Positions 34,178 to 37,106 of a stretch of DNA of 64,000 nt are shown here, piece after piece. The stretch comes from Flavobacterium psychrophilum. Its GTDB lineage: Bacteria; Bacteroidota; Bacteroidia; Flavobacteriales; Flavobacteriaceae. The notes under the pieces were generated by a model, which was given only the letters and a program-made list of their open reading frames with translations, was not told the DNA's origin and made no database searches. The stretch covers positions 744,001 through 808,000 of the forward strand of contig CP012388.1 in the NCBI GenBank assembly GCA_001708385.1, in the 5' to 3' direction. Each line of letters starts with the position of its first letter. The first letter of the stretch is position 1. The position numbers and the translations under genes are program-made.

Positions 34178-34477
34178 TTATCCTCCAATCATTACAGTAA
34201 ATGCTCCCAATACTATTGAGCCGCCATGTGCTGTCGGATCACCCATTCTGGCTGCAGGTTTCCCTCCTATCATTACAGTTGAAGATCCTTTTACTATACT
34301 ATCAGGCGATCCCACACAGACACATATATCTCCCACGACGGCTGCTGGCATTTGCGCTATTAAAACTGTAGGTACTCCCGGTCCCACTATTGGCCCTCCT
34401 ACATGAGGAATTGGTACAACTCCCGGTGTTGACATAGGGCACTGATGAAAATCTGTTATTCTTGCTGCTGGTGGCAT
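34178..34477 (-). CDS. PAAR-domain spike tip protein
   Basis: This 99-residue protein is a single PAAR domain. It has the opening PPAARITDFHQCP with His and Cys for the metal site, several Gly-rich VMIGG/VLIAQ strands, and KPAARMGDPTAHGG with a second metal His. PAAR proteins sharpen the tip of contractile injection spikes and may carry effectors; here nothing is fused to it, so an effector would have to be separate. It is the last gene of a three-gene cassette, 16 bases after the spike gene, and ends 1 base from the convergent regulator. Confidence 0.93.
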   Translation of the reverse strand: MPPAARITDFHQCPMSTPGVVPIPHVGGPIVGPGVPTVLIAQMPAAVVGDICVCVGSPDSIVKGSSTVMIGGKPAARMGDPTAHGGSIVLGAFTVMIGG

Positions 34478-34493
34478 ACTTATTTTTTTTTTA

Positions 34494-35543
34494 TTAATTG
34501 ATCGTTACCATTGCTCCTTTTACCGTAGTTTGCAAGCCCGAGGAAAGCTCCGCCTGTGTTCCGCCTTTAGCTACAAAAGACATATCTGCTATAGCTTGTA
34601 TTAGTGCAGCTTTTAATTTTACGCCAGTCACTGAGCTTATGTTAATATCGCTATTGGCAGCAATATTTATACCCGTTGCAGCCTTAAATGTTAGGTTACC
34701 GGAAGATTCTATTGAAATACCATCGCCTGACATTTCAATCCTATTATTATGCTGATCTGATAATTTAACCGATCTCAGGTCATCGCTTAACTCTATTTTG
34801 TTACCAGCCACGGTTTCAAGGGTTACAACTCTTTTGGTTTCATCAGACGTTATTTTCACTTCATTAGCGCTGACAGATTTGAAAGCAACACTATCATTAT
34901 ACTTCTGTTCGTCGTAACCGACACTTACTGTAGTAATCCAGTTGCCATTTTCTATGATATGCTCTACACTGCTTACATAAGATAAGCCATTAACTCTTTT
35001 TGAGAACCCGTCAATTTCTATAGTCGTGTCAGGCGTAGCTATAGCACTCCCCTGAAATGAAACTTCTCCTAACAAAGTACCCCACTTAACTATGGTAGCT
35101 TGATCTGTATTTAGTTTTGCATTGAACGCTATTACATTATCGGGATATGTTACTTTTAGAACAGGCTGCGATGATGTAGCAGGATTTGCATCATAAGCAT
35201 TTTTATCACTAGTTACGCAACTTACCTTCAGTCTTAACTGATCTCCACTTGCCATTACTAACTCCTGTGTATGTACAAATCCATGAAACACTACAGCGTT
35301 ACTGTTATCGTAACCACATTCTATTCTTATACTGTTGCCTTCAGCAAAATCCGCATGTTCAAGCTCAAACAAATTTTCCATAGCCTCAGAAGGGGCTAAA
35401 GTTATCAGGGCTCTTCCTATTGTATTAACTTCATGATTAACATGAATACCAGTTACCTGTATGCTATTATTTATCTGTACGCCATTGCTGTAAATAGCAA
35501 AACTTACCAGATCACTCCAATTGTTATTTGGGGAAATATCCAT
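34494..35543 (-). CDS. shortened VgrG-like spike protein
   Basis: The 349-residue protein starts with a gp27-like beta domain (about 10-105), in which FHGFVHTQELVMASGDQLRLKV is recognisable. It then jumps to what is normally the end of the gp27 region (GEVSFQGSAIATPDTTIEIDG..SSVEHIIENGNWITTVSVG, about 150-215). Family members then have an OB-fold, but here the sequence passes directly to the needle region (NKIELSDDLRSVKLSDQHNNRIEMSGDGISIESSGNLTFKAA, about 240-345). Usual relatives are about 550-620 residues. The gene is intact, with no frameshift visible, so the shortening looks evolved. It is the middle gene of the cassette, 14 bases after the sheath gene. Confidence 0.88.
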   Translation of the reverse strand: MDISPNNNWSDLVSFAIYSNGVQINNSIQVTGIHVNHEVNTIGRALITLAPSEAMENLFELEHADFAEGNSIRIECGYDNSNAVVFHGFVHTQELVMASGDQLRLKVSCVTSDKNAYDANPATSSQPVLKVTYPDNVIAFNAKLNTDQATIVKWGTLLGEVSFQGSAIATPDTTIEIDGFSKRVNGLSYVSSVEHIIENGNWITTVSVGYDEQKYNDSVAFKSVSANEVKITSDETKRVVTLETVAGNKIELSDDLRSVKLSDQHNNRIEMSGDGISIESSGNLTFKAATGINIAANSDINISSVTGVKLKAALIQAIADMSFVAKGGTQAELSSGLQTTVKGAMVTIN

Positions 35544-35557
35544 TTTATTTATATTTT

Positions 35558-36997
35558 TTAATTAGCTTTCTGTAGTTGTTGTACAATTGATATTTGCACA
35601 AATTCTGCAGGGCGTACGGGAGCAACCAAAACACTTATACGTAAGATTCCATTCAAAATATCTTCGTTTGTCATTGTCTCGATTAATCCAACCCTCACAC
35701 TAAATGAATCATCAGGCGATGAACCAACAAGGCTACCACGCTTCCAGAGGCTTAGCAGAAAATTATTTATCATACTTTTCAATGCAGACCATGTATTTTG
35801 ATCGTTCTGTTCAAAAACAAATACCTTAGCAATATTTTTAATAGATTCTTCTATCATTATAACTGTACGGCGCACATTTACGTATCTCCAGTCCTGAGAA
35901 TTCCCATCAAGGGTGCGCGCACCCCAAACCAAAGTACCCTCTCCTGGAAAATTACGCAACGCATTTACAGCCATCCCATTTAATGGCACATTAAGATCCT
36001 CCTGATCTGAATCAGAAATAGTAACAACAGAATTTGTAACGTTACTGAGGGTAACATTGGCAGGTGCTTTCCATACTCCTCTCGTGTTATCCATCATTGT
36101 ATATACACCGCCCATGGCTGAGGACGGTGGAAGGATATTTAATTGCCTCCTTATTTCCGCCATAATATCGTTGTACAATTTACTTTGGCTTTTAAATAAT
36201 TTATCAACTGCCAAAAGCTCGTCGTGACTAACATCCTTTACAATTTTATCGGTTTCAGTTTTTAATTTAGGATTCTCTGCGATGAGTATTTTTCTAAAAT
36301 CTTCAAGACCTTCCGTAATATTTGAAAAATCCACTTCACTATTTGAAACAATAGTTGTATTTACCCACGGATAGTATGAAGCTCCGTATGAAAGACTGTT
36401 ACTTCCTATTCTTTCTCTAAACACAGTTACTATGTCATTTTCATCGTTACTACGTTTTTTATATCCATCATAGATATCAAGTATCGCTATCCTGTTTTGT
36501 AATTCACTACAGTGTTTCAACATTTGCTGCTGAATTACATAACAGTCATCTGCCTTTTTAAGGTTAACCGCCTCGGGAATAATAAGCATTGTTGCTTCAT
36601 CCGCTTTTGAGGCAGCACTAATTCCGGCAGATAATCTTTGTTTTGTAATATCTTCCGAATAATTACCCACAGAAATTATGTAACACGGTCCACCTCCATT
36701 GCTAAAGAAAAATCTGACTGCATTGTAAAAGTTGTAATTATCAATACGCGAAAGGCTAAAGCCGGAATTATCGGTAGGCTTAAATTTAAAGGAGGCCTTA
36801 GGTGCAAGCCCAAAATGTTTAACAAAATCTGCCATCGAGTTGATACGTAGAGGAGTGTTAATGATTGAACCGGAATTATCCAGAGCAAATTCAGTATATC
36901 CAACAAAAACAGGTATAGCGGTTGCGGCCTCAACAATTGAGTTTGGAAAAGCATTCTTCTCTTCGATATACACACCGGGGGTTCCATATTTTGGCAT
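35558..36997 (-). CDS. contractile tail sheath protein
   Basis: The protein of 479 residues is full length for a sheath of the extracellular contractile injection system or phage type. It opens with KYGTPGVYIEEKNAFPNSI and AIPVFVGYTE, continues with RINSMADFVKHFG, FFSNGGGPCYIISVG and ASYYPWV, and ends with the conserved WRYVNVRRTVIMIEESI, SLWKRGSLVG and VLVAPVRPAEFVQISIVQ parts. Sheath subunits polymerise around an inner tube and contract to drive it out. I chose the ATG at 36997, which opens the family's usual N-terminus; the one at 37024 adds 9 residues. No tube gene follows, unlike all complete systems I know. Confidence 0.93.
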   Translation of the reverse strand: MPKYGTPGVYIEEKNAFPNSIVEAATAIPVFVGYTEFALDNSGSIINTPLRINSMADFVKHFGLAPKASFKFKPTDNSGFSLSRIDNYNFYNAVRFFFSNGGGPCYIISVGNYSEDITKQRLSAGISAASKADEATMLIIPEAVNLKKADDCYVIQQQMLKHCSELQNRIAILDIYDGYKKRSNDENDIVTVFRERIGSNSLSYGASYYPWVNTTIVSNSEVDFSNITEGLEDFRKILIAENPKLKTETDKIVKDVSHDELLAVDKLFKSQSKLYNDIMAEIRRQLNILPPSSAMGGVYTMMDNTRGVWKAPANVTLSNVTNSVVTISDSDQEDLNVPLNGMAVNALRNFPGEGTLVWGARTLDGNSQDWRYVNVRRTVIMIEESIKNIAKVFVFEQNDQNTWSALKSMINNFLLSLWKRGSLVGSSPDDSFSVRVGLIETMTNEDILNGILRISVLVAPVRPAEFVQISIVQQLQKAN

Positions 36998-37075
36998 AAT
37001 CTCTTTTTTATAATTATGATGCAAAATAAAAAATCAATTGAATGCTATAGTACGTAGAATTACCTGTTTTGAATA

Positions 37076-37106
37076 AAGAAAGCCCGCTCAATGAGCGGGC
37101 TTTCTT
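37076..37106 (-). terminator. terminator of the MoxR-VWA operon
   Basis: A perfect 14-bp stem (AAGAAAGCCCGCTC and complement) with a 3-base loop lies just past the MoxR gene. It separates that operon from the sheath cassette, so the cassette needs its own promoter in the 80 bases between 36997 and 37076. Confidence 0.92.

Follow-up and report, generated by a model that had tools for sequence, protein, structure and literature searches.

A tubeless sheath, spike and PAAR cassette in Flavobacterium psychrophilum as a possible reduced extracellular contractile injection system

We analyzed a stretch of 64,000 nucleotides from contig CP012388.1 of Flavobacterium psychrophilum (positions 744,001 to 808,000; hereafter the window), in which three adjacent genes encode a contractile sheath, a small VgrG-like spike and a PAAR tip protein. 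Sequence comparison suggests that this trio may be a reduced extracellular contractile injection system (eCIS) that persists not as a syringe but as a still expressed assembly without a tube, a reading whose chances we consider evenly balanced. Somewhat more tentatively, we propose that tubeless sheaths are a recurrent and regulated end-product of eCIS, in which the sheath and an activator-type promoter are kept, sometimes with a miniature spike and PAAR, and work as an assembly of their own, a tubule of sheath that does not inject. Of the tubeless forms seen, that of the window, with sheath, hub-and-needle spike and tip, is the most elaborate. The coordinates, the minus strand, the open frames and the spacings of 14 and 16 bases that an earlier note had given for the trio all stand, and transcription runs in the order sheath, spike, PAAR.

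All three proteins are closest to those of eCIS. Among PDB sequences, the best match of the sheath is 9r9h_T (E = 2.7e-151, 507 bits, residues 5-477 in two blocks; the chain sequence is identical in 9rce), that of the spike is 9rce_F (E = 1.9e-36), and that of the PAAR protein is 9rce_c, labelled SalCis10 (E = 1.2e-43, full length). Since these best matches all come from one solved eCIS, they are not due to chance. The next matches of sheath and spike are chains of AlgoCIS (7adz, 7aef) and of Anabaena (7b5h). The sheath exceeds the Pfam cut-off with its C-terminal domain PF17482 (43.1 bits, cut-off 26.9), and the PAAR protein does so with PF05488 (82.4 bits, cut-off 27). A contractile phage tail or tailocin was rejected, since the sheath is nearer to eCIS than to phage sheaths: its best score against the PHROG tail-sheath families, 172 bits, lies below the eCIS score, and phage gp18-type chains reach E values of about 1e-5 or weaker, against 1e-151 for eCIS chains. 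A type VI secretion system (T6SS) was also rejected as the identity of the cassette, which has one eCIS-type sheath gene, TssC and Hcp being found only at a separate T6SS locus.

The description of the spike as VgrG-like holds for its VgrG/gp27 type, but it is no ordinary VgrG: the oligonucleotide/oligosaccharide-binding (OB) fold has been lost by in-frame deletions. No Pfam match lies above the cut-off, and the OB fold family PF04717, present in 27 of 27 spike relatives of at least 526 amino acids (aa), is absent. Alignment to 24 full-length relatives places all losses in frame, the whole OB fold included, so that of the gp27 hub, OB fold and beta-helix of an eCIS spike only hub and beta-helix are kept. 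The claim that all three genes are intact is thus correct for the reading frames but not for the domains of the spike. The predicted structure retains a gp27-type hub, and its three segments with a predicted local distance difference test score below 50 fall at the deletion joints or no more than about 10 residues from them. The exact 349-aa form occurs in the window and in two environmental relatives, P0002 and P0003, whose spikes differ from that of the window by 8-11%. A 449-aa spike on a short metagenomic contig (P0025) has also lost the OB fold while retaining the first lost segment, possibly a second route to a small spike. That the spike came from a phage or a plasmid was rejected, as two peptide patterns found no relative in viral_contigs and, of 72,556 plasmids, 4 carried VgrG C-termini, all of them distant. 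The PAAR protein as a sign of mosaic origin was rejected as well: the 14 best of its 73 matches (75-83% identity) are spread over many eCIS loci, so that its origin cannot be read from them.

As the earlier note claimed, neither a tube nor a gp25-type baseplate gene accompanies the trio. No tube gene was found within 34-37 kb of the window, and the whole genome, one contig of 4.14 Mb, was searched for the sheath, tube (PF06841, the gp19 family) and gp25 families. It contains a single eCIS sheath and, in a profile search that remote tubes may escape, no PF06841 match; its sole gp25-type match above cut-off (675321-675614) lies inside the T6SS locus.

Sheaths without a tube recur among relatives. 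In 398 genomes of the genus, our own included, drawn evenly from a larger group, 70 were positive for the sheath, 65 for the tube (64 of them among the 70, and mostly above 100 bits among the matches listed) and 65 for the spike, with up to five candidates scored per genome. Six of the 70 sheath-positive genomes were tube-negative, namely our own and G033, G164, G176, G313 and G328. No other eCIS genes were found near the sheaths of G033, G164, G176 and G313, either in lists of open reading frames (ORFs) or by tblastn with the ORFs of five eCIS loci (1e-3). A seventh tubeless sheath stands alone on contig 29 of G024 (G024:C29), the tubes of that genome being on contig 51. All 23 tubed loci inspected have the tube next to the sheath; with the inspection covering these 23, genomes with a tube may contain further sheaths that stand alone. 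A scan of the 80 best sheath loci in genome_contigs gave an adjoining tube in 76, three loci without a tube and one in which the contig ends at the sheath (L161, where the contig stops past the sheath, was left out of the tubeless count). The three tubeless loci outside the genus are L095 (an Owenweeksia metagenome-assembled genome, MAG), L111 (Dysgonomonas macrotermitis) and L164 (a gammaproteobacterial MAG), and PF06841 had no match in their genomes. Like the window, all nine other tubeless loci have an intact eCIS-type sheath frame with no tube adjoining; unlike it, they have no spike, and only G328 retains a PAAR gene, which is truncated.

In the sheath tree, G328 falls within a G006-type eCIS clade, G176 with the G255 type and G164 with G080, while G033 and G313 group together (support 99) and G024:C29 is basal to a 525-aa clade. 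This scatter implies several independent origins. In L090, a complete eCIS from the genus, the order is sheath, tube, tube, a 226-aa protein, VgrG, PAAR and a gp25-like gene; the window cassette thus retains the eCIS order but lacks the genes that separate the sheath from the spike and those that follow PAAR. The earlier note had held that a full locus beside the cassette in related strains would mark it as a recent remnant; here the outcome is mixed: full loci exist in congeners, with none seen beside this sheath or spike lineage, and G328 holds a deletion remnant, but tubeless sheaths with a like upstream element recur in several lineages.

Other partial sets were seen in the same survey. 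In L095 (8697-12903), the solitary sheath is flanked by what we take to be an ApbE-like gene on one side and Nqr-like genes on the other. In L116 (8715-10684; a Dysgonamonadaceae MAG), a sheath and one tube are followed by opposite-strand genes, and the same contig carries another tube at a distance of about 15 kb. G245 matched the gp19 tube but not the sheath, and G152 matched VgrG but neither sheath nor tube; these are possibly solitary parts of the other kinds.

The aligned match between G033 and G313 covers 1891 bases, including about 290 upstream bases that the eCIS relatives do not match, and their common ancestor was therefore probably already tubeless. Upstream identity is 63% over the last 320 columns and best in a block of about 60-80 bases; conservation throughout was rejected, this level being not clearly better than that of synonymous sites (44% differ) outside the block. 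The block holds the palindrome CACGTA-AAAC-TACGTG (G033 form), and the exact 16-mer begins, on the opposite strand, 267 bases 5' of the distant G164 sheath, which matched the first, unwidened form of the motif. Related forms precede the G328 sheath and the window cassette, and CASGTANNNNTACSTR occurs once in the window (0.02 expected), at the operator-like site listed in Table 1.

We scored the operator consensus CAsGTA-N4-TACsTr over 12 positions up to 300 bp upstream of 30 sheaths, 27 of them with a resolved start (7 tubeless, the window included, and 20 tubed; the tubed loci L007, L075 and L085 were left out because their start codon was not resolved). At least 11 positions matched in six of the seven tubeless and none of the 20 tubed loci (one-sided Fisher test, p = 2.4e-5). 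All 12 matched in 5/7 against 0/20 (p = 2.6e-4) and at least 10 in 6/7 against 1/20 (p = 1.6e-4), and counting G033 and G313 once gave 5/6 against 0/20 (p = 9e-5). A background of 380 kb held 3 sites that matched all 12 positions, 8 that matched at least 11 and 129 that matched at least 10. Another of 59 kb held three intergenic sites, one of which, L198, was chosen knowing of its site and left out of the 27-locus and 380-kb analyses.

A box about 22 nt past the operator accompanies six of the seven tubeless and none of the 20 tubed sheaths when the shorter TAnnTTG is allowed besides TAnnTTTG; that of the window, read as TTATTTTG at 21 nt, matches TAnnTTTG in 5/6 positions. The -7 element of Flavobacterium johnsoniae is TANNTTTG or TAHHTTTG, with its first T at -12, as given in excerpts of PMC6847099. 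If the box is such an element, the palindrome would be centered near -42. Activators that contact the polymerase commonly bind there. The promoter type, the T6SS genes and the genus being a large one would also suggest Flavobacterium.

Full eCIS loci can carry the same arrangement. In two of the four examined in the genus (L090 and L091) a site of 11/12 is followed at 22 nt by TAGATTTG or TACATTTG and precedes the first gene of the eCIS operon, a gene with a weak, sub-cut-off GerE/LuxR match. L030 and L092 of the genus and L027 of another genus have no convincing site, and no operator was found at the tubeless L095, L111 and L164. The operator as a mark of tubeless loci only was rejected, given these two full loci and sites near tail-collar and two-component genes. 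The recurrence of tubeless sheaths in several lineages with a like promoter element is not predicted by recent decay alone.

In our own genome (L213, 11809-15860; about 99.8-103.9 kb of contig C1), a palindrome lies between two 190-aa phage-tail-collar-type genes, one of which was tested for PF07484, and an operon that encodes a protein of 113 aa, a membrane protein, a HisKA_3 kinase and a GerE/LuxR-type response regulator. G024 (L216) shows much the same layout and G164 (L214) part of it, the operon of G164 also having a like site. With at most one mismatch, CACGTAAAANTACGTG has ten matches in G164 (L177, L183, L185-L192) and 0-2 in the 15 other genomes searched; L188 and L189 share longer flanks, so some of the G164 sites may be repeats.

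The mechanism that we hypothesize starts from an ancestral eCIS operon of which the promoter and sheath were likely kept, while genes between promoter and sheath, and genes further behind, were deleted. Bound at the palindrome near -42, a LuxR/NarL-type regulator may switch on transcription. Inside the cell, sheath subunits would form a tubule of the contracted type by self-assembly, which the mini-spike and PAAR may cap or nucleate and which would not inject. Sheath subunits interlock through a conserved handshake (PMC8894135, in part), and contracted sheaths devoid of a tube have been worked with as particles (PMC8195476, in part), which makes a tubeless tubule physically plausible. Candidate roles would be stress-induced lysis, a scaffold or interference with other tail-like assemblies.

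The suggestion that the trio forms a minimal assembly of its own ranks first among the readings, with slow decay as its main rival. According to the latter, which we consider a serious but somewhat improbable explanation, deletions stripped an eCIS of its tube, its baseplate and its other components, and the three remaining frames are still open by chance. Open frames, which the earlier note took to argue against decay, cannot exclude it by their openness alone. The G033-G313 pair has a ratio of non-synonymous to synonymous change (dN/dS) of 0.137 at a dS of 0.67 and no stop, which speaks against decay; with G033 and G313 set against the eCIS sheath L062, the two branches are similar. In neutral simulations (point changes only, no indels), the chance of no stop in three tubeless comparisons was 0.032, 0.013 and 0.006, and none of the 4000 runs was as conservative as the observed substitutions, although some of this change may predate tube loss. 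Changes between the sheath of the window and that of P0034, which may itself be tubed or tubeless, are also conservative (mean BLOSUM +0.64 against -0.37, with 0/4000 simulations as high). The identical 349-aa form of three spikes, two of them diverged from that of the window, and the site at six of seven tubeless sheaths also argue against simple decay.

Several observations weigh against a retained assembly, and part of them favor decay. G328, with an intact sheath followed by a tube-like fragment and a PAAR gene without its first codons, is clearly a plain deletion remnant of an eCIS and displays the process itself. Selection is relaxed, although the ratios remain below one. Calculated by hand from polarised counts (non-synonymous over synonymous, per site), the branch of G328 has a ratio of about 0.28, its eCIS sister one of 0.04, and for G176 the values are about 0.2 and 0.08, respectively; the 0.137 of G033-G313 is relaxed against about 0.03 in two eCIS pairs of similar dS. 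The spike has internal losses, simulation finds no significant conservatism in its substitutions (p = 0.64, 0.058 and 0.12), and it is rare, a near-full-length match being found in one of the 398 genomes. The branch of the window sheath is long, its placement next to L095 is weakly supported (63), and searching with a sheath query favors finding sheaths. The operator was defined from G033 and G313 and widened after G328 and the window, i.e., post hoc, and G176 has none within 300 bp. Tubed sheaths lie inside operons, where a promoter is not expected, and are thus a weak control, background density being the better one. The strict TAnnTTTG box (at least 5/6) occurs in only 4/7 tubeless loci against 0/20 (p = 0.002), and in G024 the boxed site (10/12, 70 bp) differs from the 11/12 site (97 bp).

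The idea of a satellite borrowing a larger system has little support, with no second eCIS sheath and no gp19 match in the genome. In its specific form, which we consider very unlikely, the mini-spike and PAAR would be loaded on the tube of the T6SS encoded on the same contig (L024, about 660-678 kb), about 100 kb from the cassette. This locus has two Hcp (TssD) genes together with TssC, a sub-cut-off TssB/VipA-type match, VgrG, TssN, TssK-like, gp25-type and ClpV-like genes, a set that we take to be the T6SS-iii of Bacteroidota. However, this T6SS has its own TssC, which leaves the eCIS sheath unexplained, and the spike has no OB fold. TssD is absent from 7/7 other tubeless genomes tested, and for this reason a borrowed T6SS tube was rejected as a general explanation. 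It is equally improbable that a complete eCIS has a tube and baseplate too diverged or scattered for detection: the genome was searched for three families only, and the PF06841 search, which missed a TssD scoring 22.6 bits (below cut-off) against gp19 in hmmscan, is not exhaustive for remote tubes, but 64 of the 70 sheath-positive genomes gave a PF06841 match and all tubed loci inspected had the tube beside the sheath, with nothing similar found in our own genome.

The features of the cassette are collected in Table 1. An alternative in-frame TTG lies 5' of the sheath ATG, at 37024. On the left, the cassette is convergent with a DUF6377 gene that has a LuxR-type match below cut-off, and on the right it is followed by a MoxR-type ATPase and a VWA gene. 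The inverted repeat reported between this pair and the cassette is seen in the sequence; with this repeat intervening and no visible link to eCIS, MoxR-VWA was rejected as a component of the system.

Table 1. Cassette genes and associated upstream features (positions within the window)
Feature	Position	Strand	Basis
eCIS-type contractile sheath, 479 aa	35558..36997	-	PF17482, PHROG tail sheath, 507 bits to 9r9h_T
Miniature VgrG/gp27-gp5-type spike, 349 aa	34494..35543	-	hub ~10-212, beta-helix ~220-349, without OB fold
PAAR tip protein, 99 aa, without effector extension	34178..34477	-	PF05488; 9rce_c over full 99 residues
Palindromic operator-like site CAGGTA-ATTC-TACGTA	37051..37066	-	53 bases 5' of sheath ATG
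-7-like box TATTTTG(C)	37021..37028	-	22 nt past operator-like site
Inverted repeat at the cassette/MoxR-VWA boundary; putative terminator of the MoxR-VWA pair	37079..37103	-	sequence

Contractile machines are usually described as a sheath around a tube. If a sheath is indeed kept and regulated without one, sheaths would be useful by themselves, and a spike reduced to hub and needle, with no OB fold, would show how far such spikes can shrink. With few genes and a precise predicted promoter, the proposal is directly testable. Solitary eCIS sheaths are not mentioned in the titles and abstract openings of the open-access literature among the matches listed, nor in the excerpts of PMC8195476, PMC8213781, PMC8894135, PMC9230969, PMC10598620 and PMC10066040. 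The eCIStem survey requires at least 10 core genes, according to an excerpt of PMC8213781; such a survey would not report loci like this cassette of three genes, bounded by DUF6377 and MoxR-VWA, and the pattern may thus have been overlooked.

Considering known systems, the closest is the eCIS of 9r9h, 9r9i, 9r9n and 9rce, for which the chain label suggests the name SalCIS and which supplies, with its sheath, VgrG and PAAR chains, the best PDB match for each of the three window genes; its VgrG has 597 aa, against 349 aa in the spike of the window, and unlike it the window cassette is tubeless. The AlgoCIS particle (7adz, 7aef) from Algoriphagus machipongonensis resembles the window in its single sheath protein and in its homologous sheath and spike, but has, as far as the excerpts of PMC8894135 describe it, a complete tube, baseplate and cap and a sheath chain of 692 aa. 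The cytoplasmic contractile injection system of Streptomyces coelicolor acts inside its producer, as a tubeless assembly might; unlike the window cassette, it has an inner tube, and contraction is required for its role in cell death (PMC10066040, in part).

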